Part shown: piece after piece, positions 26,835-53,545 of the stretch
How the letters are laid out: the number at the start of each line of letters is the position of its first letter
Numbering within the stretch: the first letter of the stretch is position 1
DNA from: Norana najaformis
Taxonomy: Eukaryota > Annelida > Clitellata > Crassiclitellata > Hormogastridae
Assembly (NCBI GenBank): GCA_964023275.1
Contig: OZ029919.1
Span: forward strand, 32,519,561-32,583,560
Reading direction: 5' to 3'
Length of the DNA: 64,000 nt
Notes under the pieces: generated by a model
Seen by the model: only the letters and a program-made list of their open reading frames with translations
Database searches by the model: none
Told to the model about the DNA's origin: nothing
Made by a program: the position numbers and the translations under genes

Positions 26835-28373
26835 ATGCTGAATGAAATTCGACAAGAGCTGAGAAGATTTGCTGAAACAACTGGAATAAAGGGCATCAGT
26901 CGTATCGTCAAGACATCAAGTAAGGTAATTCGATTTTTCTGGATTATATCCATTCTGTTTTGCCTCGCCTTTCTCCTCTTCCAAGTTCCAAAGGTTCTCA
27001 TGAACTTCATGTCGCACGCCGTGACCAGAAGTTTCAACGTGGCTCAGACTAAACCGATCTTTCCAGATGTCACTATCTGCAACCTTTTCGCCATCAACAA
27101 TGTCAGCAGCACGAGCTATGATGAATACTTGGAACGAGTTGAAGCCATGAAGCAGTATGAGCTTGAAACGAACCACACTAAAGATGAGCTAATGTGGGCG
27201 ATTATGAAATCCTTCGAATTTTATAATACGAACACTCCATTACTGGAACAGGTCAGGGAAAATAACGATAGTTTCATCGTGGAGTGTTCGCAGTACGGTT
27301 GGGACATGTACTGGCCATTGAAATGCACAACCAACATAATTCTGACAACCCCGCTACAAAAATGCCACAAGATCGAATTGGACAGAAGCAACTTCACGGT
27401 TGCCGCGGTCACCGTCTTGCTTTTCGTGAATAATTTTCAGTCGCAGATCATTGACGGCTATAGTTCGTGGTTTCGGATGTCGATGGGGACTGGCGCTCGA
27501 GTCATGATCCACCCAAAGGGTACCTCTCCAGATCCGAAAACGGCGATCAAGGTCTCCACCGGAAACTGGCTGAATATCCAGCTCAAACAGACAAACGTCA
27601 ATCGTCTGTCGCAACCGTATGGCAACTGCACAGATCAAAAACTCCTCACTCCGTCGCAACCAAACTCGCCTCTATACAGCCAAAGTGCTTGCATCAGCCT
27701 GTGCAAACAACGCCAGATCATCGAAAAGTGCAAATGTCTCGACAACAATAAAATCTTCACAGACGACGAACTCAAGCTTGCAAACCATACATTTTGCGCT
27801 AACATCACCCAGACCATCACTGAGATACCATTTCGTCCAGAACCATTGACACGTTGTTTGCAATTCATCCGTTGTCAATCAAACTTTCTAGGCAACATAA
27901 CTGCCTGTGACTGCCCAGTACCTTGCTCCGACACCAACTACGACACTAGCGCCTCGTCTTCCCAGTGGCCAAATCCGCTCTACCACCTCTCATTTTATAA
28001 GCAGTACATAAAGAACAACGTGCACTATGGGAACAAGTTTTCGGACTATGAAGAAATCCTGAAGAACGTCGGAAACCAGACAGACGAGGAAACGGTAAAG
28101 CAGATCAAAAGCCTTCGGTTAATCGAAGACAATTTTCTGGAGGTTTCGATAATGTTCGCCGATGAATGCGTCCAGGAGTTTACTGATTCGGCAGCGATCA
28201 CGTGGGACACTCTGGTTGCGAATTTGGGTGGATCATTCAATCTGTGGCTTGGAATTTGTGTTCCCACGTTTGTCGAAATAATAGAACTGATCTACTCGCT
28301 GCTCGTCATTGTGTGCTGCAGAAAGAAAGTTCAGGTTGATCAGAAGGTGCCTAATAGGAAACCAACTTTCTGA
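26835..28373 (+). CDS. DEG/ENaC family cation channel, copy 1 (intronless, 512 aa)
   Basis: A single open frame. It encodes a short cytoplasmic N-terminus with TTGIKGISRI (the HG-motif position is Lys-Gly), TM1 (about residues 33-55, FFWIISILFCLAFLLFQV), FPDVTICN just after TM1 and a large Cys-rich extracellular domain (SACISLCKQRQIIEKCKC and ACDCPVPC). Before and within TM2 it has GGSFNLWLGICVPTFVEII. DEG/ENaC subunits form trimeric, usually Na+-selective channels gated by peptides, acid or mechanical force; the stimulus is unknown here. There are several N-glycosylation sequons. The ORF is open upstream to 26661, with an in-frame ATG near 26750, but 26835 matches the conserved start of copy 2. 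In the variable segment (about residues 310-335) it differs from all other copies. Confidence 0.93.
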   Translation: MLNEIRQELRRFAETTGIKGISRIVKTSSKVIRFFWIISILFCLAFLLFQVPKVLMNFMSHAVTRSFNVAQTKPIFPDVTICNLFAINNVSSTSYDEYLERVEAMKQYELETNHTKDELMWAIMKSFEFYNTNTPLLEQVRENNDSFIVECSQYGWDMYWPLKCTTNIILTTPLQKCHKIELDRSNFTVAAVTVLLFVNNFQSQIIDGYSSWFRMSMGTGARVMIHPKGTSPDPKTAIKVSTGNWLNIQLKQTNVNRLSQPYGNCTDQKLLTPSQPNSPLYSQSACISLCKQRQIIEKCKCLDNNKIFTDDELKLANHTFCANITQTITEIPFRPEPLTRCLQFIRCQSNFLGNITACDCPVPCSDTNYDTSASSSQWPNPLYHLSFYKQYIKNNVHYGNKFSDYEEILKNVGNQTDEETVKQIKSLRLIEDNFLEVSIMFADECVQEFTDSAAITWDTLVANLGGSFNLWLGICVPTFVEIIELIYSLLVIVCCRKKVQVDQKVPNRKPTF

Positions 28374-29649
28374 TGGACAGGAACATAAATGCGAAATATG
28401 AATATTTTCCACAATCAAACTTGAGAATAACAAAGCCTTTGCTGTGAGAAAGAACCGCATAATACAACACAACTGAAAGGCTGAAGTATGCAGATGAGAT
28501 TAGTTCCACCCACGTAGGGGCAGTTACATCACTAACTGCAGGAAATGGAAAAGCAGATGAACTCCGAGGAATATTACTGTGTATATCACAACACTGTATT
28601 TGTTCAGCACCAGTCCAAGAAAATTCAACCGCCGACATTTAAATATGTTGCAACAAACAATTCTGCAGCCTATGTATCGAGTTAATTTATAACTGTGTTA
28701 TTAGCCACAATTTCTTCTTTATCTTGTTTAGATGAAGGAACGTTGCCTGCGATGGCTAATCTTTATGCGTCTCTGACTTTGTGAAGGTCCATTTGAAAGC
28801 AAATTCAATAGCGGATCGATAGATATGACGTCTTCTTCTAGTTCTTAGGCATACATGGAGATCATGTACTATTTAGTACTTACACTTAGCATAAGATTGA
28901 CCATGGATCCTGCAATTTTTTTAAAAATCCAGCAGCAGCAGATAAAAGACAGCAAATAAAGAGACTGGACATTTTAAGATCTTCATTCTAGAGGTTATGG
29001 ACAATTATTAGGTACAACTAGTTTCTTCAATATCGATACACTGTGGCTGGTATCTGAACTTTGTAGCTGCAGAACCTAGCAAAACTTTCGTCGGATAAAG
29101 TTCCTGTTAAACAGGTTAACTAACAGCTCCACAAAAGTACTAAACATTTCATGTCTCCACATACTTCAACAGCTTCCTACAACTCGTTACAAAACCTGTT
29201 TATGCCAGGTTCTTATTCAAAATTCTTAACCACAAATCACTTTAATATGAAATTTTATATTATGTGTGAAAAAGTGGATTCACCTGCAGCAATAGCCCAG
29301 TCTCATAGGCTTGACCAGACATCTAACACCGGCATTGGCAGAGTGCAACACCCACCACCTGTTCTTATTCGTCTCGTGATTCGCGAGACATGTTGTACAA
29401 ACGTGGTAGGCGGTTACTGTGTATGGATCCTGAGCAAGTCCTTCACTTACAATTTTGATTAGTGATTAAATTGCCCTATGTCATGGCCAGATTGCGATTA
29501 AGAACATTTTGGAATTCAAATGAAAAATCATTTCAAGATTGATCGGATAATACAAAAACATAAAACACAACTTCTTGGGGAAAATGGCTCCACTAAATTG
29601 TGGCGCTCCAGGCAACTGCCTGCCCTGCCTTTACCTAAGGCCGGCCGTG
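28374..29649. other. Downstream block of channel 1
   Basis: No gene is supported. Bases 28900-29180 ('ggtatctgaactttgtagct', 'ctagcaaaact', 'atttcatgtctcc') match 34300-34510 downstream of channel 2 and 53580-53830 downstream of channel 4, showing that the duplication unit extends about 0.8 kb past the channel stop. Only one copy of the 3' minisatellite unit is present here. Confidence 0.6.
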
Positions 29650-29769
29650 GTTGTTACGAAATTTTGAGAAGTTAGCCAAGCCCAGAGCGACGTGCCTCAG
29701 CCCTTCTGTTTCGACCGTTAAGCTATCCAGAAGCCGGAACACGTTGATCAGATGATCCGTAAGAGCTTC
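29650..29769 (-). pseudogene. Armadillo-gene exon fragment
   Basis: The minus strand reads 'cttttccag|GAAGCTCTTACGG...' and encodes EALTDHLINVFRLLDSLTVE...LGLANFSKFRNN. This is clearly paralogous to exon 59064-58933 of the armadillo gene (GALTDHLINMCRLLDNLSDE...). The reading frame is still open, but homology stops at about 29650, before the donor site, where a SINE-like sequence begins ('ggcaactgcctgccctgcc', 'ggccggcc'). No neighbouring armadillo exon is found, so I treat it as a duplicated remnant. Confidence 0.75.
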
Positions 29770-30864: not shown

Positions 30865-30960
30865 TGGCAAAAAGTAATCGTAATTCCGAAATTTCTACAG
30901 CGCCCAACGAAAGCCACGTCGCGGGGACCAGCTTATTCGCAGGCGCAAAGTGTTCACATT
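30865..30960 (-). mobile_element. LINE family B 3' tail fragment
   Basis: A reverse-complement tail: 'aatcgtaattccgaaatttc', 'tacagcgcccaacgaaag', 'accagcttattcgcaggcgc'. It lies at the position where the blocks of channels 3 and 4 carry forward LINE-B tails. Confidence 0.75.
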
Positions 30961-30999
30961 TTCAAACGGACAATTGAAATTCTCTCGACAATGACACTC

Positions 31000-31735: not shown

Positions 31736-31799
31736 AGTATGAATTGTCGTAATCACAGGACAGAATAACTAAAATACCGGTACATCTATTACATGCTCT

Positions 31800-32123
31800 G
31801 TAACGATCAACTATTGGATTGTGCATTAGTTCGATCAATTTCTGAATGCATAGCCTAATTCATACTTTTTGCATGTGGGAAAATTTCGGACGGCATGTCT
31901 GCTTGCCCGGCAGAGCCGAAATGTTTTTATTGACGCTTGAACATCCTCATATAACTAATAGAAATGGAATTGATATCGATTATTCATTTATGACTTCCGA
32001 TACTTGTATTGAAATGCACCTATGACAGCAAATGTCTCTTAATGTGGCCCATATGAAACCATCCTCGTAAATTGCTTTAGAAGCAATTTGTACGCAGAAC
32101 AATTATTCAAATCCGCTATAAAA
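31800..32123 (+). promoter_or_regulatory. Proximal promoter of DEG/ENaC channel 2 with TATA box
   Basis: TATAAAA at 32117-32123 in 'gctataaaatgaggcgc'. The conserved 'attgatatcgattattcatt' block is near 31969, and 'ggattgtgcattagttcgat' near 31815. The TATA box lies about 160 bases before the ATG. Confidence 0.7.
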
Positions 32124-32279
32124 TGAGGCGCAGAGGATAGCATGTGCCACACTCTGCAGCCGTATTGCTAATTAAGTGGCAGCCAAAAAACTTGCATTGA
32201 ACACTTCACATCTAGACTAGTTACATCGGTTGGATTTGTTCCATTAGTTAGTGCAGTCAGAATACAATATTTCAACGCG

Positions 32280-33818
32280 ATGCTGAATGAAATTCGACAA
32301 GAGCTGAGAAAATTTGCCGAAACAACTGGGATAAAGGGCGTCAGTCGCATCGTCAAGACATCAAGTAAGGTAATTCGGTTCTTCTGGTTGGCATCAATTT
32401 TGCTTTGCTTCGCCTTTCTTCTTGTCCAAGTTCCAAAGGTTCTCATGAACTTCATGTCGCACACCGTGACCAGAAGTTTCAACGTGGCTCAGACTAAACC
32501 GATCTTTCCAGATATCACTATCTGCAACCTATACGCCGTCTATAATATCAGCAGCACGAGCTATAATGAATACTTGGAAAGAGCTGAAGCCGTGCAGCGG
32601 TATCAGCTTGAAATGAACGACACAGAAGCTGAACTAATGTGGGCGATTATGAAATCCTTCGAATTTTATAACACGAACTCTCCATTACTGGAACAGGTCA
32701 GGGAAAATAACGATAGTTTCATCGTGGAGTGTACGCAGTACGGTTGGGACCTGTACTGGACAGTGACATGTACAACCAAGGCAATTCTGACAACTCCGCT
32801 ACAAAAGTGCCACAAGATCGAATTGGACAAAAGCAACGGCACGGTTGCCGCGGTCAAACTGTTACTTTTCGTGAACAATTTTCAGTCGCAGATCATTGAC
32901 GGCTATAGTTCCTGGATTCGGATGGCGACGGGCACCGGCGCTCGAGTCATGATCCACCCGAGGGGTACCTTTCCCAATCCGAAAACGGCGATCAAGGTCT
33001 CTACCGGAAACGGGTTGAATATCCAGCTCAAGCAGACTGATGTAAATCGTCTCTCGCAACCGTATGGCAACTGCACCGATCGAAAACTCCTCGTTCCGTC
33101 GCAACCAAACTCACCTGTCTACAGCCAAAGTGCTTGCATCAGCCTGTGCAGACAACGCCAGACGATCGACAATTGCAGCTGTCTTGACCATAATGAAATC
33201 TTCACAGACGACGAACTCAAGCTTGCAAACCGTACATTCTGCGCTAACATCACCCAGACCATTACCGAAACACCATTTCTTCAGGAAGAATTGACACGTT
33301 CTTCGAAACTCATGATGTGCTATATATTCTTCGTACGCAACGAAAATGCCTGTGATTGCCCAATACCTTGCTCAGAAACCTACTACGACACTAGCTCCTC
33401 GTCTTCCCAGTGGCCAAACCCGCTCTACCACCTCTCCTTTTATAAACAGTACATAAAGAACAACATGCACTATGGGAACAAGTTTTCGGACTATGAAGAA
33501 ATCCTGAAGAACGTCGGAAACCAGACAGACGAGGAAACGGTAAAGCAGATCAAAAGCCTTCGTCTAATTGAAGACAATTTTCTGGAGGTTTCGATAATGT
33601 TCGCCGAGGAAAGCATTCAGGAGTTTACTGATTCGGCGGCGATCACGTGGGACACTCTAGTGGCGAATTTGGGTGGATCATTCAATATGTGGCTTGGAAT
33701 ATGTGTTCCCACGTTTGTCGAAATAATAGAACTGATCTACTCGTTGTTCCTGGTTGTGTGTTGCAGAAGGAAAGCTAACGCTAATCAGGTGGTGCCTAAA
33801 AAGATACCAGCTTTCTGA
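32280..33818 (+). CDS. DEG/ENaC family cation channel, copy 2 (intronless, 512 aa)
   Basis: Same architecture as copy 1: TTGIKGVSRI before TM1 (about residues 33-55), FPDITICN at about 76-83, SACISLCRQRQTIDNCSC, CDCPIPC and a TM2 region with GGSFNMWLGICVPTFVEII. The cytoplasmic tail is short (RRKANANQVVPKKIPAF). The segment near residues 310-335 (QEELTRSSKLMMCYIFFVRN) is shared with copy 4 but not with copies 1 or 3, a sign of exchange between copies. The ATG at 32280 is the first in frame after the conserved promoter. It probably forms homo- or heterotrimers with the other copies (inference). Confidence 0.94.
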   Translation: MLNEIRQELRKFAETTGIKGVSRIVKTSSKVIRFFWLASILLCFAFLLVQVPKVLMNFMSHTVTRSFNVAQTKPIFPDITICNLYAVYNISSTSYNEYLERAEAVQRYQLEMNDTEAELMWAIMKSFEFYNTNSPLLEQVRENNDSFIVECTQYGWDLYWTVTCTTKAILTTPLQKCHKIELDKSNGTVAAVKLLLFVNNFQSQIIDGYSSWIRMATGTGARVMIHPRGTFPNPKTAIKVSTGNGLNIQLKQTDVNRLSQPYGNCTDRKLLVPSQPNSPVYSQSACISLCRQRQTIDNCSCLDHNEIFTDDELKLANRTFCANITQTITETPFLQEELTRSSKLMMCYIFFVRNENACDCPIPCSETYYDTSSSSSQWPNPLYHLSFYKQYIKNNMHYGNKFSDYEEILKNVGNQTDEETVKQIKSLRLIEDNFLEVSIMFAEESIQEFTDSAAITWDTLVANLGGSFNMWLGICVPTFVEIIELIYSLFLVVCCRRKANANQVVPKKIPAF

Positions 33819-34265
33819 TGGACAAAAAATAAGTGGTCAACTTTTTTATGGACAGGAAAATAAGCGAACTATTTTTCTGAAGGACGGAAAAATAAAAGAC
33901 TAATTTCTGATGGACGGAAAAACAAGTAAACTAATTTTCCGATGGATGGAAAACTAAACCAACTGTTTGATGGAGAGGAAAATAAATAAACCAACTTCCG
34001 GATGGACAGAAAAATAAGTTTATCAACTTTCTGGGCAGGAATATAAGTTAACTGGCATTCTTATGAACATGAAGTTTAGGAAACCGACTTTGTGATTGAC
34101 ATACAAATAAGTAAAAGTAACTTTCTGATGGGGAAGAAAACAAATAAACCAACTTTCTGGTGTGCAAGAAAATAAACCAACTTTTTTTGATGAACATGAA
34201 GGTAAGTAAACCAACTTTGTGACTCACAGGAAAACAAAGTCTGATGGACAGGAAACTAAGATGGA
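33800..34265 (+). repeat. 3' minisatellite derived from the channel stop region (channel 2)
   Basis: About 12-13 degenerate units of 30-40 bases with consensus 'accaactttctgatggacag' followed by 'gaaaataagtaa'. The unit matches the last codons and stop of the channel ORF (...CCAACTTTCTGA in copies 1, 3 and 4). Several units carry AATAAA. Shorter arrays follow channels 3 and 4; channel 1 has a single unit. Confidence 0.8.
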
Positions 34266-34519
34266 CAGGAAATAAGTAAGAAACATGAACATTTTATACA
34301 AAGTTGCGCATTATAAGACCATTATTGTAGACTGTATGCGACAGTACAATTAACAGGTACAACTATGTTCTTGAATATCACATATTGTTGCTGGAATCTG
34401 AACTTTGTAGCTGCAAATCCTAGCAAAACTTCATTCACGCAAAGCGTTTTAACAAAACAGATTTTAAAATCTTTTCCACAAAACTAATAAATATTTCATG
34501 TCTCCTCGTATTTTAACAT

Positions 34520-34650
34520 TTTGCTGAAAAGCGTGTATCCAAGATAAGAAGTGCAGTTGCTGTGGTTCAGCAAAGTATTGATCAGCATAAAGAGTTGGAG
34601 AGGTCTATGATGAAAATGACTCACTTAAAAAGGCAAATGCAGAGTGTGGT
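34520..34650 (+). pseudogene. Fragment of the SCAF-like gene's last exon
   Basis: 'gaagtgcagttgctgtggtt' and 'attgatcagcata' match 49165-49210 at the end of the exon at 48734-49240. Homology continues into its 3' flank ('gctgtgtgattaaagct', 'ccttaaacaccaact', 'cattggatctaattaaagtc'). The 5' part of the exon and the rest of the gene are missing and the frame is degraded, so this is a remnant carried in the duplicated block. Confidence 0.8.
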
Positions 34651-35124
34651 TTGATCTGGGATTAAAGTTTTTATGTGCAATTACTGCATTTGAAGTTTAT
34701 CTTTTAGTTTCATGATAAGTTTTAGGAATTTAAAAAGTTATATTAAAAATACATATATTATTTAGTTATGTAAAATGACATAATTTTGACGTAGCAAAGT
34801 TTGGTTTTATTGGTGAATGAAGTTTCTATGAATTGGCTAGTTTTCTTTTTTGCTGTGTGATTAAAGCTTCTTTTATAAGTTAGCTTTTAATTTTATGATG
34901 TATTGTAAAATTGGGATTTTAGTTTTGTTTTTTAAATTTTGATAGATGCAGTAATTTGGTGTGCCTTAAACACCAACTTCAGACAGACTGCAGACAGTCA
35001 GCACTGCATTGGATCTAATTAAAGTCCCATTAACGGACTGGACATAAATTACCCCATCCTGTAGCACAGTTGACGGTGCAAAAACAATGGGTTAGCCTAA
35101 TCTTGACCGTTGAACAAAGGGAGA

Positions 35125-35235
35125 TTGGAAATCGTAAACTCGAGATTTCTACAGCGCCTAACGACAGCTAAGTCGTGAAACAGCTTACGCTCAGGGCCTC
35201 AGTCAAAACAAAGTCGATGGATAGGAAGAGTCAGA
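35125..35235 (-). mobile_element. LINE family B 3' tail fragment
   Basis: Reverse tail 'gaaatcgtaaactcgagatt', 'tctacagcgcctaacgacag', 'cctcagtcaaaacaaagtcg'. The orthologous insertion is at 49625-49745 in the channel 4 block, so it predates the duplication. Confidence 0.75.
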
Positions 35236-35334
35236 GTCGGTTCGAGATAAAATCGCTTTTGTGATTCGAAGCGCACTTTTTGGAAATTTTTCATTCGGAC
35301 TCGCTTGGTGGTAGCACAGTTTTAAACAGCTCTG

Positions 35335-35580
35335 TCGTAAACTCGAGACTTCTACAGCGCCCAATGAAAGCTAAGTCGTGGGAATCAGCTTATTCACAGA
35401 CGCTAAGTCAAAACAAAATCGTTAGGCAGGATCATTACTATGGTTCCGGGTCAAGATCCAACAGGTAGTCAGACGGCTACGGTGAGTGGTGTTTGGAAGT
35501 GGATCTGAAAGACAGATAAGGGGAAGAAGAGGAATCAGGATAGGATCTGTAGAAGAGGATTGTTTTAGTTTTGAGTTATT
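35335..35580 (-). mobile_element. LINE family B 3' end
   Basis: Reverse copy with terminal 'cgtaaactcgagacttctac', the 3' UTR and the final RT codons ('ggggaagaagaggaatcagg'). It matches 49905-50130 in the channel 4 block. Confidence 0.75.
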
Positions 35581-35829
35581 TTCCTGCACATCCCACACAG
35601 CTCCAGGACCGATGATGCAGGATGTCATGGATGACGGATATTCTTTCATAGATTTAGAATTTCATCTGACGCAAATTAGGTGCATCACTTCTGACCTTAT
35701 GGTGCACACGTGTAGGCCTATTCCATGTAACCAACTAAGACTAAAATGGGTGATCTGGCCTCTCGGTTTCCTGGCTCGCTGCTTGGAAACGGCGTCTTTT
35801 CAGATGACATGTTCACGTTTAGAAAAAAC

Positions 35830-35915
35830 AATTTGAATAAGCTGTTCCCCATGTCATGGCTTTTGTTGGGCGCTGTAGAAATCGCGGGATTACAATTAAG
35901 TTCTATTCGCTATGT
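35830..35915 (+). mobile_element. LINE family B 3' tail fragment (forward)
   Basis: Forward tail 'gaataagctgttccccatgt', 'gttgggcgctgtagaaatcg', 'cgggattacaattaag'. The counterpart is at 51225-51310. Confidence 0.7.
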
Positions 35916-36039
35916 AACTATTAGCACTTTCGATTACATTTTACATAGTTAAGCATCCTGTTGAAACTTGTTACTGACGACGGCGTATCATGAATTGTCA
36001 TGAACACATTACGTTACAACTAAAATACCGATGCTCTGT

Positions 36040-36385
36040 AACGATCAATGCATGGATTGTGCATTAGTTGGATCAATTCTTAACAGCATAGCTTAAATCG
36101 TACTCGGTACCTGTGTGGCATATCGGTCTGCAAGTCTGTTTGTCCACACACAGCCGAAGCGAAAACAGCAAGGTAATCTTTTTTAAACTGACGCTTCAGC
36201 ATCATCAAATAACTAACAGAAATGGTGTTGATATCGATCATTCATTAATGACGTCCCATAATTGTATGGAAATGCACCCAAGACAGCAAATAACCCTTTC
36301 TTTGTGTGTTCCAGAAGAAATCACACTCCGATACTGGTTACCAAGTAATTTGTGTGCGAAACAATTAATCAAATCCACTATAAAA
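36040..36385 (+). promoter_or_regulatory. Proximal promoter of DEG/ENaC channel 3 with TATA box
   Basis: TATAAAA at 36379-36385 in 'cactataaaatgaggcgcc'. The 'gttgatatcgatcattcatt' block is near 36227, and 'ggattgtgcattagttggat' near 36054. Nearly identical to the channel 4 promoter from the TATA box to the ATG. Confidence 0.7.
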
Positions 36386-36505
36386 TGAGGCGCCAAGGAT
36401 AATGCGCCAGACTAGGCAGCCGTAGTCCTAATTGCCAAAACACTTGCATCGAAGACCATCACATCTGGATTGGTTTCTGCAGTCAGGTTACTTTATTTTA
36501 ACGCG

Positions 36506-38035
36506 ATGATGAATGAAATCCAACAAGAGCTGAGAAGATTTGCCGAAACAACTGGGATAAAGGGCGTCAGTCGCATCGTCAAGACATCAAGCAAGGTAAT
36601 TCGGTTTTTCTGGTTGGCATCAATTTTGATCTGCTTCGCCTTTCTTCTCTACCAAGTTTCAAAGGTTCTCATGAACTACACGTCGCACACCGTAACCAGA
36701 AGCTTTAAACTGCTTCAGGCTAAACCGATGTTTCCAGATATCACTGTCTGTAACCTTTTCGCCGTCAACAATACCAGCAGCAGAAGCTATTATGAATACT
36801 TGAAAAAAATTGACGCCATAAAGCAATATTCGAACAAAACGTATGATAAAAATGACTGGGGGATTCTGGGATCCATCGAAATTTATAATACGAACACTCC
36901 GTTACTTGAAGATTCCGGTGAAAACGGCGATGGTTTCACCGTGGAGTGTTCACAATACGGTTGGGACCTGTACCTGCCAGTGACATGTACAACCAAGGCA
37001 ATTCTGACAAATCCACTACAAAAGTGCCACAGGATCGAATTGGACAGAAGCAACGGCACGGTTGCCGCGGTCAAACTGTTGCTTTTCGTGAATAATTTTC
37101 AGTCGCAGGTCATCGACGGGTATAGTTCGTGGATTCGGATGTCGACGGGCACCGGTGCACGAGTCATGATCCACCCGAGGGGTACCTTTCCCAATCCGAA
37201 AACGGCGATCAAGGTCTCCACCGGAAACGGGTTGAATATCCAGCTCAAACAGACAAACGTCAGTCGTCTGTCGCAACCGTATGGCAACTGCACCGATCGA
37301 AAACTCCTCGTTCCGTCGCAACCAAACTCACCTGCCTACACCCAAAGTGCTTGCATCAGCCTGTGCAGACAACGCCAGACGATCGACAATTGCAGATGCC
37401 TCGACAACAATGAAATCTTCACAGACGACGAACTAAAGCTTGCAAACCGTACATTCTGCGCTAACATCACCCAGACTATCACAGAGACATCATTTACTCC
37501 GAAAGCACTGAAACGTTCTTTCGAATTACTCGTCTGCCAAGCTAACTTCACACGCAACGAAAATGCCTGTGACTGCCCAATACCTTGCATGGAAACCTAC
37601 TACGACACTAGCGCTTCGTCTTCCCAGTGGCCAAATCCGCTCTACCACCTCTCCTTTTATAAACAGTACATAAAGAACAGGGTGCAATATGGGAACAAGT
37701 TTTCGGACTATGAAGAAATCCTGAAGAACGTCGGAAACCAGACAGACGAGGAAACAGTGAAGCAGATCAAAAGTCTTCGTCTAATCGAAGACAATTTTCT
37801 GGAGGTTTCGATAATGTTCGCCGAGGAAAGCATTCAAGAGTTTACAGATTCGGCGGCGATCACGTGGGACACTCTGGTTGCGAATTTGGGTGGATCATTC
37901 AATTTGTGGCTTGGAATTTGTGTTCCAACGTTTGTCGAAATAATAGAACTGATCTACTCGTTGTTCGTCCTTTTTTGTTGCAGAAAGAACGTTAACGTTA
38001 TTCAGGTGGCACCTAAAAAGAAACCGACTTTCTGA
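36506..38035 (+). CDS. DEG/ENaC family cation channel, copy 3 (intronless, 509 aa)
   Basis: Starts MMNEIQQELRRFAETTGIKG; the first 67 residues are identical to copy 4. It has FPDITVCN after TM1, SACISLCRQRQTIDNCRC, CDCPIPC and GGSFNLWLGICVPTFVEII at TM2. The extracellular segment at about residues 68-160 is the most divergent of the four (KKIDAIKQYSNKTYDKNDW, PLLEDSGENGDGF), and the segment at about 305-330 (KALKRSFELLVCQANFTRN) is its own. The frame is also open for 12 codons upstream (a TTG start would be at 36470), but the ATG at 36506 follows the family. The C-terminus NVIQVAPKKKPTF runs into the minisatellite. Confidence 0.94.
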   Translation: MMNEIQQELRRFAETTGIKGVSRIVKTSSKVIRFFWLASILICFAFLLYQVSKVLMNYTSHTVTRSFKLLQAKPMFPDITVCNLFAVNNTSSRSYYEYLKKIDAIKQYSNKTYDKNDWGILGSIEIYNTNTPLLEDSGENGDGFTVECSQYGWDLYLPVTCTTKAILTNPLQKCHRIELDRSNGTVAAVKLLLFVNNFQSQVIDGYSSWIRMSTGTGARVMIHPRGTFPNPKTAIKVSTGNGLNIQLKQTNVSRLSQPYGNCTDRKLLVPSQPNSPAYTQSACISLCRQRQTIDNCRCLDNNEIFTDDELKLANRTFCANITQTITETSFTPKALKRSFELLVCQANFTRNENACDCPIPCMETYYDTSASSSQWPNPLYHLSFYKQYIKNRVQYGNKFSDYEEILKNVGNQTDEETVKQIKSLRLIEDNFLEVSIMFAEESIQEFTDSAAITWDTLVANLGGSFNLWLGICVPTFVEIIELIYSLFVLFCCRKNVNVIQVAPKKKPTF

Positions 38036-38340
38036 TGGACAGGAAAAGCAAGCAATCTAATTTTCTGATGGACGGAAAAATAAACCAACTGTTTGATGGA
38101 CAGGAAAATAAATAAACCAGCTTCCGGATAGACAGAAAAATAGGTGTACCAATGTTCTGGACAGGAATATATAGGTAAACTGATTTTTATGAACATGAAG
38201 TTTAGTAAGCCAACTTTGTGATTGACAGAAAAATAAGTAGGCCTAAAGGCGACTTTCTGATGGGCAGGAAAAAAGTAAACAAACTTTCACATGGTCAGGA
38301 AATAAAAAACGAGCTTTTTAATGAACATGAGGGTAACTAA
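38025..38340 (+). repeat. 3' minisatellite derived from the channel stop region (channel 3)
   Basis: About eight to nine degenerate units with 'ctttctgatggacaggaaa' and 'aataaaccaac' blocks. It starts with the channel's own stop codon and is interrupted at about 38345 by a LINE-B copy; one further unit ('gtaaaccaactttctgatga') resumes at about 39155, after the LINE. The LINE therefore inserted into the array. Confidence 0.8.
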
Positions 38341-38344
38341 AACA

Positions 38345-39140
38345 TATCCGCGACATTCGTAAAATCCGCCCTATCCTTGACTTCAAAACCACATCTACCA
38401 TTGTCACATCCATAGTCCATGCAAAACTTGACTACTGCAATTCACTTTTCCTCAATATTGACACAACTCAGATAAACCGCCTTCAAGCTATCCAGAATGC
38501 TCTCGCTGGTGCTGACACCAAAACCCCTAAACACCACCACATTACCCCTTTCTCAAATCACTGCACTGGCTTAAAATACCAGAACGAATAGAGTACAAAG
38601 TCTTATCCCTCTCCTACAACGCACTTAAATCCTCCCTACCCCCCTATCTTCGTCAGTTATTTACTATCCAACCACTCCGTTCAACCCGCTCCTCATCTGT
38701 CCTAACACTTCTTCGCCCTCTCGTCACCTCATCCTTAAAATTTGGAAATCGCTGCATAGCCATAGCTGCCCAACCCCTTTGGAATAAACTCCCGCCAGAA
38801 TTGCGACAGTTGTCTGATAAATCATACGAACTCACCAACACTTCACCTCTTTCAGTTTCTCTGCAGGTCTTTCACTCAAGACTGAAAATACTTCTTTTCC
38901 AAAAATCTTATCCTGATTCTTCTTCTTCCCCTTATCTTTCTTCTCGGTTCTATTTCAAACATCATCCACCGTAGCCGTCCGACTGTCTGACTACCTGACT
39001 CCTGGATCTTGACGTGGAACCGAACCCTTTTGCCTAGCGATTTTGTTTTGATTGAGTGCCTGTGAATAAGCTGGTTCCCGTGACTTAGCTTTGGTGTGGC
39101 GCTTTAGAAATCTCGAGATTACGAATACGATAAATCACCT
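38345..39140 (+). mobile_element. LINE family B, 3' portion with RT C-terminus (longest copy here)
   Basis: Encodes the end of a CR1/L2-superfamily reverse transcriptase: HAKLDYCNSLFLNI, then LKSLHWLKIPERIEYKVLSL after a frame slip near 38553, then PPYLRQLFTIQPLRSTRSSS, QPLWNKLPPELRQ and a final YPDSSSS. The 3' UTR and terminal 'ctcgagattacgaatacgat' follow. It is 5'-truncated and inserted in the channel 3 minisatellite. It defines the repeat whose tails recur at least a dozen times in the window. Confidence 0.85.
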
Positions 39141-40245
39141 CTGTGAATGACAGAAAAAAGTAAACCAACTTTCTGATGAATAGAATCGTCTTGTAGTGAG
39201 TTAAATTATAATGAATACATTTTCTATAATTGAACTTATTTTGGGCCTATGTCCCAGACGGAGCTATATAAGAATTTGTTTTAGCTTGAGGTTTGTTATA
39301 ATGAGACTCTAGTGTGCTACAAATTCCACCACAATGACAAGATAATATAATGCGACCAAGTATTTATTATTTACGCACCAGCTCCCACCCGACAAGACAT
39401 CTACCAGTACTAAGAATCTAGCTGTCACAGAAAATTCAGAGCTTAAAAGTACATATGTGAAATGAAAATTTAAGTTAAGAACAGATTCCGATACTAAAAC
39501 GTCTGTAGAATCTGAAATGATCTGATTAAGACTGCATTAAGTTCCACTCTAGACATTAAATGCGCGAAGTAGCAAATAATCTTCTCTAGCTTTCCACATT
39601 ACAAAATGTAAAAAAAACAAGAGTATGTTGTTAATTTCTAATCAAACAAAGCCAACACTGTCCTGAAGGCTCTGTCGATCAGCACAGCCAGAAAGCTTAT
39701 TTTGCCTAGTACCGAGTAGGTAGACAGATGAAGTTTTTTCTGTGTCATTTATTTATTATATGTTTAGGCCTACGTGTTATGTATGAACGTGTGTAACCGG
39801 CATGTATGCATGTACGTAAACTTGTATCATGACACTTAATATAGCGCCTTTTCATGACTTTTTATACATGGCTTTCCAGCTGATACAAGACAACCATGGT
39901 GGGCATAAGACACTCCAGTGGAGTTCCCTTGAAAATTATTTCATCGGGACGTAATACCAAGGATTGTTATCACTCCAAAAGCATCAAGTAGCCCTAATGC
40001 ATTTCCGTAAACAATATAATGTAACACAGAAATTGTAATGTTACCGATAGTTCACCACGAAAGGCAGGCTAATGGCTTAGAACTGATCTTCAGAAATTTA
40101 GATCTTTGCTTAGAGGACTCCGCTCTACGCTTTAATCAAATACTGGATGGTGTGAAACTCGAATCAGAAGTCCCAAATTACATTACAACTGAAAAAAACA
40201 ATTCAGTTACTACCGATTCTGATTTCTAGCACAGAAGATTACAGC
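39141..40245. other. Duplicated non-coding block, paralogue of 54400-55780
   Basis: Long collinear similarity to the region downstream of channel 4, for example 'ataatgaatacattttc', 'ttccaccacaatgacaag', 'agacat.taccagta.taagaatcta', 'tttccacattacaaaat', and 'cacagaagattacagcg' at the right end. No ORF is conserved between the two copies, so it is probably non-coding or a UTR. A 'aatatagcgccttttcatga' SINE tail is at about 39838 with its counterpart at about 55361. Confidence 0.7.
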
Positions 40246-40249
40246 GGTT

Positions 40250-40440
40250 GTCAGTAGTGGCGGATTTTACCATAGGCGCGGGGGCCGTTTCGCCCTTATC
40301 CCTTCCGCCCCTCTTGGTTATATGGTGGCGTCCTTCAGACCAGACTCGTGCATGGTGGCCTGCCAGAACTGGCGCTCCTCTGAAACTCCTCTTGTTCCCC
40401 CACGCAAGGAATTCTGGATCCGCCACTGTCTGACAGTAGG
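40250..40440. mobile_element. MITE-like non-autonomous DNA transposon
   Basis: About 180 bases with imperfect terminal inverted repeats: left 'agtggcggattttacc', right '...ggatccgccact', sharing AGTGGCGGAT. There is no coding capacity beyond chance ORFs. It sits exactly where similarity to the channel 4 block ends (about 55775), so it may mark the junction or have inserted there. The flanks are not clear enough to call a target duplication. Confidence 0.55.
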
Positions 40441-40474
40441 CCTATAGCTTCTCTCTTTCTTTCTCTCTCTCTCT

Positions 40475-40566
<92 letters not shown>
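40441..40566. repeat. CT-rich tract then a long (AT)n microsatellite
   Basis: A (CTTT/CT)n stretch at about 40450-40478 is followed by an almost perfect AT run of about 88 bases (40479-40566). Poly-(Tyr-Ile) ORFs across it are artefacts. Confidence 0.95.
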
Positions 40567-40568
<2 letters not shown>

Positions 40569-47500: not shown

Positions 47501-49240
47501 TGTGGAAACACCGAGTTCGTATGATTCTGAGTCGACTTGGAGAAAGTGATTGTCTAATGTCAGTGTCATTCATTGACCTTTCAATACAGTGTCAGGATTC
47601 CAGCTGTGTTATGCAAAATTGAGATTTGAAAAGATACCGAAAGAAGATTGGATGGTTATTTGATTGCTGTTACTGGCCAAGAGATCCTCATGTTACAAGA
47701 CTAAAAAGGGCTGTTGATGATGTAATGGTTGCATTATAAGTAGTGTAATTTTGAGGTATTTAATTAACGTGGGACGCGATGGTGTAGTGGTATGTTTGGT
47801 GCCTTGTAACCGAAGGGTTGCAGGTTCAAATCTGCCTCTAGCCACTGCATAGGGATCTTGGACAAGTTGCTCACCCACAACTGTCTGTGAGGAAGACAAC
47901 GGAAAACGACCTAACTCTTCTCATCCCCAGGTGGCATAAAGCCAATGGACCTGCCTTCAGGCAGAGAACTCTTCATCATCAATTAAAAATTGGTGTGTGA
48001 TTTTGTGCTTGTATCTCAACATTTGTTTATTGGATTTTGAGAACCTCTCTGAGGCACTGAAACATGGTTATCCTACAGGTCTGAAAATGTGTTATTTATA
48101 GATTGGCTGAAAATGTTTCCTGAGTTATAATTAGCTCCAAGTTCTTACCAGATACTGATGATTTTGATAAAAATGTAGCCCTAAGTGAGGTTTCTTGCAT
48201 TTACCATTGGAAAATTGTTAATTCGATTGAGAGCATGCCTCTGCTGGCTCCACCCAGCATGGCCTGCCTCTGGGCAGTGCCTCCCAGTACGAGACCTGGA
48301 ATGATGCCATTTCTGCCACCAAATGCCATTGTCACCACTTTTTCATGTATGTATGCATTTATTTATTTATGTATGTACGTATTTACCTGTGTGAAAGTGC
48401 ACTTGTTTGGATCAGTTAGCCATCTATGCAGGGCTCCACGAACTACTTAAATGATGCTATATCACGTGTCATTATGCATACATACATACTGACTTGCCTA
48501 CATGGATGCATACATACATACATATGAGTTAGGCAGTGTATGAATTATTTCTGTAGCCACAATGAGTTGTTAATTGGGCTTTGAAGCTTTTGTGTGTTTT
48601 CACAGTACATGCTTAAGAATTGGAGAATTTTAATTAATTAATTTAATTTTAATAACTTACTTTTATGTGATGCTAGTGTTAATTGTCATTACTACATTTT
48701 GTTACATCAGAGAATGTGTTTGTTTGAATGTAGGACATGTTTTCTGAAATTGCAAAGCTGAGCTCAGAAGTAACAGAGTTGAGGAAAAAAGTTAAAGCTG
48801 GTGATGTTGCTCTTCACGTTTTGGAATCGAAAGTAGACAGCCTTCAGACTCGCATTGACATTGATCGTCTCCTCTTTCTGCTCACAGATATGAATGTGTA
48901 TATTCATATTGCTAAGAAAATAAGGTTGAATCAGCTCGAGAAATTGACAGCTGAAGAGAGGAAGACATTACTGTATCATGGCAAGCGACGTGTCATACGT
49001 CCTGGAATGGCTGGCATTTTTGACTTGCAGAACTGTAAAGTACACAACACAATTACAAATACAGAAGTCGAAGAGGCTGTGTTTCTCTTAAACTCTCATC
49101 CAGGGTTTGTGGAATCGATTCAAGACTTGACTATCGAGACTGTTGTAAAGCATATATGCAAGGCGCGAAGTGCAGTTGCTGTGGTTCAGCAATATATTGA
49201 TCAGCATACAGAAACTGCAGATGTCTGTAATGTGAAATGA
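41513..49240 (+). CDS. SCAF4/SCAF8-like CTD-interacting protein lacking the RRM, 9 exons, 573 aa
   Basis: Exons: 41513-41542, 42588-42716, 43533-43694, 44200-44329, 45199-45461, 45999-46291, 46838-46900, 47339-47483 and 48734-49240. All junctions are in phase (1722 nt). Residues 1 to about 150 are a CID very close to vertebrate SCAF4/8 (MEAVKAFNNE, AVKFYKHVVQSVERFI, YKVPGLYVIDSVVRQSR). Then come a Ser/Gly segment, a Gln/Leu/Pro-rich segment (HQLLQQFPQPLGSLSLLQQL) and a short RS stretch (CRSRSRDRRRSRSSHRSRRS). The CID binds the phosphorylated RNA polymerase II CTD, and SCAF4/8 prevent premature 3'-end processing. Vertebrate SCAFs are over 1100 aa with an RRM after the RS region; no RRM is seen here. 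Instead the last exon encodes about 168 residues I do not recognise, starting with a heptad-like coiled coil (FSEIAKLSSEVTELRKKVKA). Joining that exon to the SCAF part is inferred from phase. Confidence 0.8.
43085..43146. repeat. (CATA)n-like microsatellite
   Basis: 'tacatacatacatacat'-type units in intron 2 of the SCAF-like gene, downstream of a SINE tail. The same association occurs at 9518-9557 and about 48475-48525. Confidence 0.7.
44788..45040 (-). mobile_element. SINE family S1
   Basis: A reverse-oriented copy of the element at 19842-20120: 'gtatcccatatcccacatgt', 'aaggtcctggacaggggtca', 'tgccatttacttcccagctt', 'aacaacttgcccagggtcat'. It lies in an intron of the SCAF-like gene. Confidence 0.8.
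45545..45765 (-). mobile_element. tRNA-derived SINE, family S2
   Basis: The second copy of the family at 13430-13645, in the intron before SCAF-like exon 6. On the minus strand the head 'gtctagtggttagtgtgctg' and box B-like 'aattcaaattcc' come first. Confidence 0.75.
47769..47990 (+). mobile_element. tRNA-derived SINE, family S3
   Basis: A tRNA-like head with box A 'tggtgtagtggtatgtttgg' and box B 'ggttcaaatctgcc' in correct spacing (47780-47835). The body contains 'ggcataaagccaatggacc' and ends 'cttcatcatcaatt'. It lies in intron 8 of the SCAF-like gene, in the region where RRM exons would be expected. Confidence 0.8.
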
Positions 49241-49624
49241 TGCTCTTATGGCAATGTGGTTTTATAATGGCCCTAATGCTTTTATGTGCAATTAGCTAAA
49301 TTTAGTTTTGTGATGTGTTTTAGGAATTAGTAACTGATTATAAAAAGTTTCTGCTGTGTGATTAAAGCTGCTACAATTTACCGTTTAGTTTTATGATGTA
49401 TTGTTAAGTGGGTTTTGGTTTGGTTTTCAAAATTTGGTACATGAGTTATTTCAGTGTAGCCTGTGCTTTAAACACCAACCTCAGACAGACTGCAGGCAGT
49501 CAGTACTGCATTGGATCTAATTAAAGTCCCTCTAACGGACTGGACAGTAAAGTAACCCATCCTGTAGCACTGTTAGCGGTGCAAAATAAACAGGCTAACC
49601 TAATCTAGGCTGCTGTAGAAGGGG

Positions 49625-49745
49625 AGGTTGGGAATCGTAAACTCGATATTTCTACAGCCATTGAGGAAAGCTAAGTCGCAGAACCAACTTATTTATGCTC
49701 AGGGCCTGGGTGAAAACAAAGTCGATAGATAGGAAAGGTGAGAGT
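49625..49745 (-). mobile_element. LINE family B 3' tail fragment
   Basis: Reverse tail 'gggaatcgtaaactcgatat', 'ttctacagccattgaggaaa', 'gaaaacaaagtcgatagata'. It corresponds to 35125-35235. Confidence 0.7.
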
Positions 49746-49904
49746 CGGTTCCAGGTAAAATAGCTTAAAATTGTAATTCGAAGCGCGCCTTTTGAAAATA
49801 TTTCATTTGCACTCGCTAGGCGGCAGCACGGTTTTAAACGGTTCAAATTCTGGCATTCGGCACATGAGTCCTTCACACGTGATGACCACTCCTATATGTT
49901 CTGA

Positions 49905-50130
49905 ATCGTAAACTAGAGACTTCTACAGCGCCCAATGAAAGCTAAGTCGCGGAAATCAGCTTATTCACAGGCGCTCAGTCAAAACAAAGTCGTTAGGCAG
50001 GATGATTAAAAACGGTTCAGGGTCACGATCCAACGGGCAGTCAGACGGCTACGGTGTATGCTATTTGGAATTGGAGTGGCAAGATAGATCAGGGAAGAAT
50101 ATGATCTGTGGAAGAGGAGTGTTCTTACTT
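49905..50130 (-). mobile_element. LINE family B 3' end
   Basis: Reverse tail 'gaatcgtaaactagagactt', 'ctacagcgcccaatgaaagc', then 3' UTR reaching the final RT codons. It corresponds to 35335-35580. Confidence 0.7.
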
Positions 50131-50579
50131 TTGAGCGAAAGACCTGGACAGAAGCTTGCAAGAGGTTTAGTGTTGGTTAGTTAAAATGATGAGTTAGATA
50201 ATTGTCAACTTCTACAACGTCTTTCAAAAGAAGAGTACGGCGAGACAGACCTTGGGGTGCCACCCCACCAGAGGAAGGCCCGCATCAGCCGTGGCTACCT
50301 GGGAAATGGGTGACCCCATGGCGGACTGACTTTATGGCCATGAGACCCGGGGTGCCGGTTTTGCCAGGGGAACGCCTCGGATGCCTGGAGGCAGAATGTG
50401 AAGGCGTGACTTGGAGGTATTTCCTGAAGCAGAAGTGAACACCCTTGCGGGGAAGCGGAAATTAAAGCCGGAGCTGGTGAAGAGCAGGAACTTGGCTTTC
50501 AAGGTAGGCAGTCTAATCCTGAACAAAGACTTACGATGTGCAGTGTAATAGGCCTATATTGTAATGTAAAGATGGCATT

Positions 50580-50790
50580 TCATGCAGTGCACTTCAAGAG
50601 TCATTTCAGGTGTCTCAGTTACAAGCCGTCTGTCTGTCTGCCTGACTCGTGGAGCCTGACCTGGAACCGAACCAGTCCTGCCTAACGATTTGTTTACTGA
50701 ACGCCTACGATTAAGCTGGTTCCCACAACTTAGCTATCGTTGGATGCTGTTGAAATCCCGACCATACGATAACGAATTATTGTGATTGCT
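50580..50790 (+). mobile_element. LINE family B 3' tail fragment (forward)
   Basis: 'cctgacctggaaccgaacca', 'aagctggttcccacaactta', 'gaaatcccgaccatacgat' in the family order. There is no counterpart in the channel 3 block. Confidence 0.65.
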
Positions 50791-51224
50791 GTCAGGTAAG
50801 GTAGGTTTCGATCCTTTTTCTGCGGTAACCTCGTGGGCCTATATGATCCGTTAATAACGAATTCAAGCACGGTGGCACTTTCCTCGCTACAGGTCCGCCA
50901 TCTGTGAAGATCTGTCGGTCACTTACATCGATGCATCAAGTCGTACATACTACGTGCTCTCGTGAGTCGGTCTTTTTAAACTTTCTACTGGACCGATGAT
51001 GCAGGGATGGATGGCGGATATTCGTTCATATATTTAGCAGTTCAGCTGTTGCAACTCAAGTGCATCACTTCTGACCTTATCGTGCACCTGTGTGTGCCTA
51101 TTCCAAGTAACTATGACTAAAATGGGTAATCTGGCTTCTCGTTTTCCTGGCTGGCGTGCTTGGAACGGCCTTGCGCCATCTTTTCAGGTGGCAGTGTGTT
51201 CACGTTTAGAAAAAACCAATTTAA

Positions 51225-51310
51225 ATTAATTGCGCCTGTGAATAAGCTGGTCTCCGTGACGTGGCTTTCGTTGGGCGCTGTAGAAATCTCGAAATTACGA
51301 TTAAATTCTA
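51225..51310 (+). mobile_element. LINE family B 3' tail fragment (forward)
   Basis: 'gcgcctgtgaataagctgg', 'gctttcgttgggcgctgtag', 'aaatctcgaaattacgatta'. The counterpart is at 35830-35915. Confidence 0.75.
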
Positions 51311-51439
51311 TTCACTATATAACTTTTAGCACTTGCGATGACATTTTACATAATAAGGCACCCTGTAGAAAATCGTTACTGACGATGGTGTATCATGAAT
51401 TGTCATGAACACATTACATTACAACTAAAACACCGATGC

Positions 51440-51784
51440 CCTGTAACGATCAATTAATAGACTGTGCATTAGTTGGATCAATTGTTGAGTGCTTCGCTTA
51501 AATCGTAGTCGGTACCTGTGTGTGGCATTTCGGTCTGCACGTCTGCTTGCCTACACGCAGCCGAAGCGAAAACAGCCATGCATTGTTTTTTATTGGCCCT
51601 TCAACATCATCATATAACTGACAGAAATGGGGTTGATATCGATTATTCATCAATGACCCGTCAAATGTATGAAAACGAATATATGCCAGCAAACAGCTCT
51701 GTCAGTAGTCCAGATGAAACCAACCTCCTGTATTGCTTTAGTAGTAATTTGTGTGCGAAACATTTAATCAAATCCACTATAAAA
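51440..51784 (+). promoter_or_regulatory. Proximal promoter of DEG/ENaC channel 4 with TATA box
   Basis: TATAAAA at 51778-51784 in 'cactataaaatgaggcgcc'. The 'gttgatatcgattattcatc' block is near 51632. The stretch from the TATA box to the ATG is almost identical to channel 3. Confidence 0.7.
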
Positions 51785-51904
51785 TGAGGCGCCAAGGACA
51801 ATGCGCCAGACTAGGCAGCCGTAGTCCTAATTGCCAAAACACTTGCATCGAACACCATCACATCTGGATTGGTTTCTGCAGTCAGGTTACTTTATTTTAA
51901 CGCG

Positions 51905-53446
51905 ATGATGAATGAAATCCAACAAGAGTTGAGAAGATTTGCCGAAACAACTGGGATAAAGGGCGTCAGTCGCATCGTCAAGACATCAAGCAAGGTAATT
52001 CGGTTTTTCTGGTTGGCATCAATTTTGATCTGCTTCGCCTTTCTTCTCTACCAAGTTTCAAAGGTACTCATGAACTACACGTCGCACACCGTGACCAGAA
52101 GTTTCAACTTGGTTCAGACTAAACCCATTTTTCCAGATGTCACTATCTGCAACATTTTCGCCGTCAACAATATCAGCAGCACGAGCTATGATGAGTATTT
52201 GAAAACAGTTGACGCCATGAAGCAGCATGAGCACGAAACGTACCATAGGCTTACTAAAGATATCGCGTGGGAGATTCTGGGATCCGTCGAATTTTATAAT
52301 ACGAACACTCCATTGATGGAAGAGATCAGGGAAAACGACGATGATTTCATCGTGGAGTGTTCGCAGTACGGTTGGGACCTGTACTGGACAGTGACATGTA
52401 CAACCAAGGCAATTTTGACAACTCCGCTACAAAAGTGCCACAAGATCGAACTGGACCAAAGCAACGGCACGGTTGCCGCGGTCAAACTGTTGCTTTTCGT
52501 GAATAATTTTCAGTCGCAGATCATTGACGGCTATAGTCCGTGGATTCGGATGTCGACGGGCACCGGCGCTCGTGTCACGATCCACCCGAGGGGTACCTTT
52601 CCCAATCCGAAAACGGCGATCAAGGTCTCCACCGGAAACGGGTTGAATATCCAGCTCAAACAGACAAACGTCAGTCGTCTGTCACAGCCATATGGCAACT
52701 GCACCGATCGAAAACTCCTCGTTCCGTCACAATCAAACTCACCTGCCTACAGCCAAAGTGCTTGCATCAGCCTGTGCAGACAACGCCAGACGATCGACAA
52801 CTGCAGATGCCTCGACAACAATGAAATCTTCACAGACGACGAACTCAAGCTTGCAAACCGTACATTCTGCGCTAACATCACCCAGACTATCGCAGAGACA
52901 CCGTCTCTTCAGGAAGCATTGACACGTTCTTCGACACTCATGATGTGCTATATATTCTTCGTACGCAACGAAAATGCCTGTGATTGCCCAATACCTTGCA
53001 TGGAAACCTACTACGACACTAGCGCCTCGTCTTCCCAGTGGCCAAACCCGCTCTACCACCTCTCCTTTTATAAACAGTACATAAAGAACAAGGTGCAATA
53101 TGGGAACAAATTTTCGGCCTATGAAGAAATCCTGAAGAACGTCGGAAACCAGACAGACGAGGAAACGGTAAAGCAGATCAAAAGCCTTCGTCTGATCGAA
53201 GACAATTTTCTGGAGGTTTCGATAATGTTCGCCGAGGAAAGCATTCAAGAGTTTACTGATTCGGCGGCGATCACGTGGGACACTCTGATTGCCAATTTGG
53301 GTGGATCATTCAATCTGTGGCTTGGAATATGTGTTCCCACGTTTGTCGAAATAATAGAACTTATCTACTCGCTTCTCGTCATTGTGTGTTGCAAAAGGAA
53401 AGTTAATGTTATTCAGGTTGTGCCTGATTATAAACCAACTTTCTGA
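51905..53446 (+). CDS. DEG/ENaC family cation channel, copy 4 (intronless, 513 aa)
   Basis: Starts MMNEIQQELRRFAETTGIKG, identical to copy 3 for 67 residues, then departs from it. It has FPDVTICN after TM1, a two- to three-residue longer loop (YHRLTKDIAWEILGSVEF), SACISLCRQRQTIDNCRC, CDCPIPC and GGSFNLWLGICVPTFVEII at TM2. The segment QEALTRSSTLMMCYIFFVRN is shared with copy 2. The tail ends KVNVIQVVPDYKPTF. As in the other copies, the HG position is KG and the G-x-S position is GIC. It lies about 2.7 kb downstream of the SCAF-like gene on the same strand, with its own promoter. Confidence 0.94.
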   Translation: MMNEIQQELRRFAETTGIKGVSRIVKTSSKVIRFFWLASILICFAFLLYQVSKVLMNYTSHTVTRSFNLVQTKPIFPDVTICNIFAVNNISSTSYDEYLKTVDAMKQHEHETYHRLTKDIAWEILGSVEFYNTNTPLMEEIRENDDDFIVECSQYGWDLYWTVTCTTKAILTTPLQKCHKIELDQSNGTVAAVKLLLFVNNFQSQIIDGYSPWIRMSTGTGARVTIHPRGTFPNPKTAIKVSTGNGLNIQLKQTNVSRLSQPYGNCTDRKLLVPSQSNSPAYSQSACISLCRQRQTIDNCRCLDNNEIFTDDELKLANRTFCANITQTIAETPSLQEALTRSSTLMMCYIFFVRNENACDCPIPCMETYYDTSASSSQWPNPLYHLSFYKQYIKNKVQYGNKFSAYEEILKNVGNQTDEETVKQIKSLRLIEDNFLEVSIMFAEESIQEFTDSAAITWDTLIANLGGSFNLWLGICVPTFVEIIELIYSLLVIVCCKRKVNVIQVVPDYKPTF

Positions 53447-53545
53447 TGGGCAAAAGATAAGTAAACCAAGTTTCCGTTGGATAGGAAAATAAACCAACTT
53501 GGAAAACCAATACGAAAAAAGAAAATTAACTTTCTGATGGACAGA
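53430..53545 (+). repeat. 3' minisatellite derived from the channel stop region (channel 4)
   Basis: About three units ('accaactttctgatgggcaa', 'aaaccaagtttccgttggat', 'aattaactttctgatggaca') starting with the channel's own stop codon. Confidence 0.7.

Follow-up and report, generated by a model that had tools for sequence, protein, structure and literature searches.

The 64,000-nucleotide stretch analyzed here (the window) comes from the annelid Norana najaformis (GenBank assembly GCA_964023275.1, contig OZ029919.1, positions 32,519,561 to 32,583,560 of the forward strand) and contains a tandem array of four intact, single-exon channel genes of the DEG/ENaC superfamily. The four open reading frames (ORFs), termed D1 to D4, all lie on the plus strand: D1 at 26835..28373 (512 amino acids), D2 at 32280..33818 (512 amino acids), D3 at 36506..38035 (509 amino acids), and D4 at 51905..53446 (513 amino acids). 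The sizes and the overall span (26835..53446) are those given in the original prediction, a model's annotation of the same DNA. Each ORF encodes a full-length ASC domain (Pfam PF00858), with E values of 1.2e-59, 1.2e-60, 5.5e-61, and 3.7e-62 for D1 through D4, and each match spans positions 1-455 of the 455-position profile; thus, the domain is free of introns in all four copies, in keeping with the earlier claim of one uninterrupted frame per channel. As judged from the DNA sequence alone, the genes therefore have the lack of introns that is taken as a hallmark of retrogenes.

Besides the start codon common to D2-D4, which gives the 512-amino acid product, D1 has an in-frame ATG at 26748 that would add 29 residues (541 amino acids). 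By eye, the context of this upstream ATG is weaker than that of the shared one. Identity to D1 is 82, 78, and 79% for the other three copies, and pairwise comparison by the NG86 method yields 0.08-0.13 for nonsynonymous divergence (dN) and 0.20-0.27 for synonymous divergence (dS). When neutral change was simulated (substitutions only, 2000 runs), frames without an in-frame stop persisted in 0.55, 0.10, and 0% of the runs at 0.10, 0.15, and 0.20 changes per site, respectively. Since so few neutral runs stay free of stops, the four open frames are not attributable to chance. DEG/ENaC proteins canonically have 14 extracellular cysteines, and 14 invariant cysteines are present between the transmembrane segments of all four copies.

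The homologous 5' flanks of the four genes share an invariant sequence, CTATAAAATGAGG, which includes a TATAAAA located 127-201 bp before the ATG. According to the flank alignment, this element, conserved in all four copies, lies on the plus strand at 26634..26640 in D1 (201 bp before the ATG), 32117..32123 in D2 (163 bp), 36379..36385 in D3 (127 bp), and 51778..51784 in D4 (127 bp). Between the TATA box and the ATG, the splice-donor motifs GT[AG]AG, GTATG, and GTAAA (the only forms sought) are absent from every copy; D2 does have a single GTAAA, but it is positioned upstream of the TATA box. A transcript starting at the shared TATA box would thus be expected to lack an obvious intron in its 5' untranslated region.

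Tandem duplication and probable exchange between the copies

Similarity among the copies extends well beyond the coding regions. About 530 bp of 5' flank can be aligned across D1-D4, with a p-distance of 0.13-0.27 and a Jukes-Cantor distance of 0.15-0.33 (442-522 sites per pair). This divergence is of the same order as the coding dS, with pairs that include D1 being somewhat higher. In a blastn self-comparison of the window, D3 lies within a duplication unit of at least 34522..40250 (plus strand), which is collinear with a D4 unit of at least 49141..55774 (plus strand). The blocks of the D3 unit are at 34522-34730, 34847-35327, 35335-35575, 35606-38155, 39182-39636, and 39615-40250, and their partners in the D4 unit run from 49141-49328 to 55139-55774. 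The block at 35335-35575 is itself an interspersed repeat. D1 and D2 share a block that pairs 26366-28379 with 31815-33824, and the flanks of D4 are linked by shorter blocks to the corresponding 3' flanks of both these genes and to the distal 5' flank of D2. When the regions downstream of D3 and D4 are aligned globally, the p-distance is 0.38 over 1990 sites, a high value because homology there is interrupted and occurs in blocks. The copies are therefore arranged head to tail on one strand with homologous sequence on both sides. Because the flanks are shared on both sides, the array was amplified by tandem duplication of DNA rather than by repeated retroposition. This supports the original prediction, which had proposed amplification at the DNA level together with the flanks; the shared 5' flank of all four genes, the pairwise blocks, and the D3/D4 unit all speak for it.

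The copies may not share a single history along their length. Among 51 informative sites, 32 group D1 with D2 and D3 with D4, 15 group D1 with D3 and D2 with D4, and 4 favor the third split. Of the sites that join D1 to D3 and D2 to D4, ten are consecutive, at nucleotides 1007-1080 of the alignment, a run that was equalled in only 1 of 200,000 shuffles. Within the block of 29 codons around this run, which encodes part of the thumb, D2 and D4 differ by 3 amino acids, while the other five pairs differ by 14-17. The simplest reading, suggested by this pattern, is that a tract in the thumb region underwent gene conversion between D2 and D4, against the main tree.

A degraded fifth copy is present just upstream of D1, at about 25405..25718 on the plus strand. 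This relic of a C-terminal ASC region was detected by tblastn as three collinear pieces in three frames and contains at least one stop as well as frame changes. With sensitive settings the E values are 3e-7 to 2e-6, and none of 100 shuffled sequences scored as well (best, 0.008). With default statistics the match is weaker (E of 0.022), although again none of 100 shuffles reached it (best, 0.026). The fifth copy does not appear in the earlier account of the array. A LINE-like stretch at 24998-25502 (minus strand) abuts the relic.

On their 3' side, D2 and D3 are both flanked by repeats of about 32 bp. In D2 they begin at the stop codon and occupy 33812..34276 (plus strand), as tandem repeats at 33812-33968, 33848-34017, and 34243-34276; in D3 they occupy 38015-38344. 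The repeat unit echoes the context of the stop codon, and AATAAA/ATTAAA signals occur among the repeats of both genes.

Selection, pore and family relationships

In the 423 codons that lie outside the finger and the thumb block, the ratio of dN to dS (omega) is 0.37 (p of 2e-12 against 1). In this conserved part, omega on the terminal branches is 0.54 for D1 (p of 0.012 against 1), 0.27 for D2 (p of 1e-4), 0.25 for D3 (p of 2e-5), and 0.23 for D4 (p of 9e-5). Thus, all four copies are under purifying selection.

The finger region has evolved faster. It comprises alignment columns 88-148 (57 codons once gapped columns are removed), corresponding in D1 to residues 88-147, at 27096..27275 on the plus strand, with partner regions in D2-D4. 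When branch lengths are shared between regions, omega is 1.49 in the finger vs 0.36 elsewhere (likelihood ratio of 63.8). When the finger is given its own branch lengths, omega is 1.07 (p of 0.81 against 1) vs 0.37 in the rest. An alternative tree with separate branch lengths gives 1.26 (p of 0.43), and omission of the gap zone gives 1.10. Among 23 windows of 60 codons analyzed with shared branch lengths, omega exceeds 1 in five, three in the finger and two in the thumb block. The thumb block (333-361), which was picked after the data had been seen, has an omega of 1.6-1.8, which is not distinguishable from 1. For the finger, positive selection was indicated with shared branch lengths (p of 0.02) but was rejected once separate lengths had been used. 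Because omega is then about 1, acceleration of the finger is claimed, but positive selection is not.

A role for this region can be sought in related channels (papers are cited here by their PMC identifiers). In the channel FaNaC1 from Malacoceros, V87-F144, together with two other segments, makes up the FMRFamide pocket, whose sequence varies strongly even among FaNaCs (PMC11026163). Judging from the conserved flanks, the finger of D1-D4 probably corresponds to the pocket helices alpha1-alpha3 of FaNaC1 (PMC11026163).

The pore has three residues or motifs that are fixed in all four copies: Lys-Gly in place of the His-Gly that most DEG/ENaC members keep before the first transmembrane segment (TM1), Asn at position 6' (Gly in Aplysia FaNaC), and a G-I-C selectivity filter in place of G-I-S. 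The copies thereby depart from the G/S-x-S filter, with its Ser at 12', as well as from the His-Gly motif. However, neither is a strict criterion, since accepted members deviate from both. A printed alignment gives BRTNaC1 a G-I-C filter as well, so this filter alone is not unique to D1-D4; DEGT-1d has the filter G-A-T and is missing His-Gly (PMC8536179), and PDPNaC1 is described without the canonical His-Gly (PMC12714832). Assignment of D1-D4 to the DEG/ENaC superfamily thus rests on the full domain. The residue at 6' is described as the amiloride binding site, and changing the Ser at 12' of alpha-ENaC to Cys gives a PK/PNa of 0.227 in the rat channel and 1.781 in the mouse channel (PMC8536179). 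In PDPNaC1, replacement of Gly378, which by its spacing to the Gly-Ala-Ser tract would be the 6' residue, with Ser or Gln raises Na+ selectivity (PMC12714832). Because the published mutant results pull apart, only a lower amiloride sensitivity and an altered sodium/potassium selectivity are predicted for D1-D4.

When a profile of D1-D4 is compared with solved structures, the best matches are Malacoceros FaNaC1 (8on7, 4.3e-32) and Aplysia FaNaC (7yvb, 3.9e-30), followed by ENaC alpha (6.7e-21), and then ENaC gamma and ASIC5. The likeness to the two FaNaCs extends across TM1, the beta-ball/thumb, and TM2 and includes a PYGNCT-like motif. The activity of FMRFamide on Aplysia FaNaC depends on seven residues (PMC9234716). 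Five of these could be mapped, F231 and I281 being outside the printed alignment, and three are kept: R288, R324, and S447, as R222, R257, and S376. The equivalents of G316 and R529 are changed, and these changes, along with the Lys-Gly, the Asn at 6', and the Cys at 12', set D1-D4 apart from FaNaC. Over 246 shared columns, identity is 32-34% to FaNaC1, Aplysia FaNaC, and ENaC alpha and 29-31% to ENaC gamma. An unrooted tree of 8 sequences built from these 246 columns recovers a FaNaC pair (85.2 in the Shimodaira-Hasegawa-like approximate likelihood ratio test, SH-aLRT; 83 bootstrap) and an ENaC pair (95.5/97), with D1-D4 apart from both on a common branch of 0.99 substitutions per site. A plain assignment to FaNaC was dropped, since D1-D4 are no closer in identity to FaNaC than to ENaC alpha and fall outside the FaNaC pair; with two of the five mapped determinants also lost, they are candidate members at most. 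On balance, D1-D4 are probably not gated by FMRFamide. Among viral and prokaryotic contigs, 54 and 181 stretches, respectively, matched the search pattern for relatives of D1-D4, and none was confirmed.

Origin, function and surroundings of the array

The proposed history would begin with a founder, a single-exon DEG/ENaC gene with its own TATA promoter, that probably arose as a retrocopy of an mRNA. Unequal crossing-over in place would then have generated four functional genes as well as one or more older copies that are now dead, and each copy would probably be transcribed, from a promoter duplicated along with it, into a single-exon RNA. By analogy with the family, each product should be a two-transmembrane subunit of a homo- or heterotrimeric, ligand-gated cation channel. 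Purifying selection would have held the pore and palm core while partial gene conversion mixed the copies, and divergence would have gathered in the finger, the peptide-binding region in related channels. It is this combination of a divergent finger and a conserved core that favors, as the likeliest outcome, a small set of receptors that differ in their ligands or in how they combine into heteromers, and we regard such a set, amplified in tandem from a single-exon founder, as likely. A retrocopy origin of the founder is plausible, being consistent with the data and with the precedent of HyNaC12 in Hydra, and a lineage-specific receptor expansion is possible.

Several points weigh against this explanation. 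The retrocopy step is without direct support, as neither a poly-A tail nor a target-site duplication was identified, and the transcripts of the array are predictions from DNA. In the conserved part, the internal branch has an omega of 1.0. The pattern in the finger could be due to relaxed constraint or to imported segments. Its match to the FaNaC1 pocket rests on the flanks, because no printed alignment crosses the finger, and an AlphaFold model of the channel made from the four-row alignment reached a mean predicted local distance difference test score (pLDDT) of only 28.5. The lost FaNaC determinants, G316 (Gln249) and R529 (Glu436), are lost in all four copies. Finally, mutation of the Gly-Ala-Ser tract of PDPNaC1 leaves selectivity unaltered (PMC12714832), which weakens a prediction of selectivity from the Cys at 12'.

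Alternatively, the founder may have belonged to a subfamily that had long been intronless, through ancestral loss of introns or a very old retroposition, so that only the tandem amplification is recent. HyNaC12 is itself intronless, with an early retrotransposition inferred by its authors (PMC4212090), and belongs to clade B along with ENaC and FaNaC (PMC9822975). Furthermore, the promoter is common to all four copies, and given their long common branch the founder need not be young. This account is a serious possibility, though not the one we favor. That the members of the array are diversified neuropeptide-gated channels of the FaNaC/WaNaC family proper would explain why both FaNaCs precede ENaC alpha among the profile matches, why R288, R324, and S447 are retained, and why the finger varies, a trait also of FaNaCs (PMC11026163). 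Yet the change of G316 and R529 in every copy, an identity to FaNaCs no greater than that to ENaC alpha, and a FaNaC pair that excludes D1-D4 make it doubtful.

Some of the copies could instead be decaying or silent duplicates, with the divergence of the finger a matter of mere relaxation. An omega of about 1 in the finger would fit, as would the fifth copy, a relative that is already dead, but none of the four frames is interrupted, and omega in the conserved part is below 1 on every terminal branch, so that such decay is unlikely. The favored explanation, a receptor set built from a single-exon founder, can also be extended. A DEG/ENaC channel of neurotransmitter type would have been retroduplicated, gained a TATA promoter, and been amplified into tandem chemoreceptors in which the finger pocket varies and the pore, rewired to Lys-Gly, Asn at 6', and Cys at 12', is fixed, a counterpart of the diversified receptors of nicotinic type that molluscs encode in intronless tandem genes. 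In this full form the scenario is improbable.

Elsewhere in the window, an NWD1-like NACHT/WD40 ORF of 1106 amino acids runs uninterrupted at 1305-4625 (minus strand) and may be one large exon. Given this ORF, the claim of many introns in every other gene of the window is unconfirmed as it was written. Of the 145 ORFs listed, ten outside the channel genes were picked by eye for Pfam searches, and no family scored above its cut-off; scans of the window with Rfam (gathering threshold) and for tRNAs were empty. By eye, the translations at 38337-38974 (plus strand) and 24998-25502 (minus strand) resemble what we take to be the C terminus of a LINE reverse transcriptase; Pfam found no family in 38531-38971. 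An interspersed repeat of about 90-330 bp is present in both orientations at 6339, 12265, 35335, 38868, 49906, 50626, and 57251, several of these positions being within the array. A second, of about 250-275 bp, is found at 19852-20126, 44773-45022, and 56046-56310, and a 95-bp tandem repeat (4.3 copies, 91% matches) is located at 24188-24597.

Comparison with known systems

Among the literature matches listed (supplements not covered), no intronless tandem array of DEG/ENaC genes is described; the main text of a paper on Biomphalaria FaNaC (PMC10325066) contains neither the word exon nor the word intron. A precedent within the superfamily is Hydra HyNaC12, a DEG/ENaC gene that, like D1-D4, has one uninterrupted frame, and for which the authors infer retrotransposition; HyNaC3-11 have introns (PMC4212090). 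Unlike D1-D4, HyNaC12 is described there as one gene rather than an array. The introns of HyNaC3-11 and the nine exons of centipede PDPNaC1 fit the premise of the original prediction that DEG/ENaC genes usually have introns.

With respect to the pore, D1-D4 resemble centipede BRTNaC1 in the G-I-C filter and PDPNaC1 in the missing canonical His-Gly (PMC12714832). However, BRTNaC1 and PDPNaC1 are tied to heat and protons, and PDPNaC1 further differs in its multiple exons, its Gly-Ala-Ser tract, and, by spacing, its Gly at 6' (PMC12714832). The fixed combination of G-I-C, Lys-Gly, and Asn at 6' makes it possible to test the joint effect of the His-Gly loop, the 6' residue, and the filter on selectivity. 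The copies also constitute a natural swap set, since almost the whole of the pore and palm is common to them and their divergence is greatest in two short regions; swapping the finger from one copy into another would show directly whether it sets the ligand.

Intronless receptor genes are known from other protein families. A review lists several chemoreceptor families, including a group written CR, as intronless, a hallmark of retroduplication; its passage on these families does not name DEG/ENaC (PMC11526382). The nicotinic acetylcholine receptor (nAChR) genes of molluscs form intronless tandem arrays through retroposition followed by tandem duplication (PMC6896357). Like D1-D4, these are intronless, tandem genes for ligand-gated channels, although nAChRs are pentameric Cys-loop receptors whereas DEG/ENaC channels are trimeric. 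The array would thus exemplify growth of the DEG/ENaC family by a route similar to that of the mollusc nAChRs: probable loss of introns, followed by tandem duplication and gene conversion.

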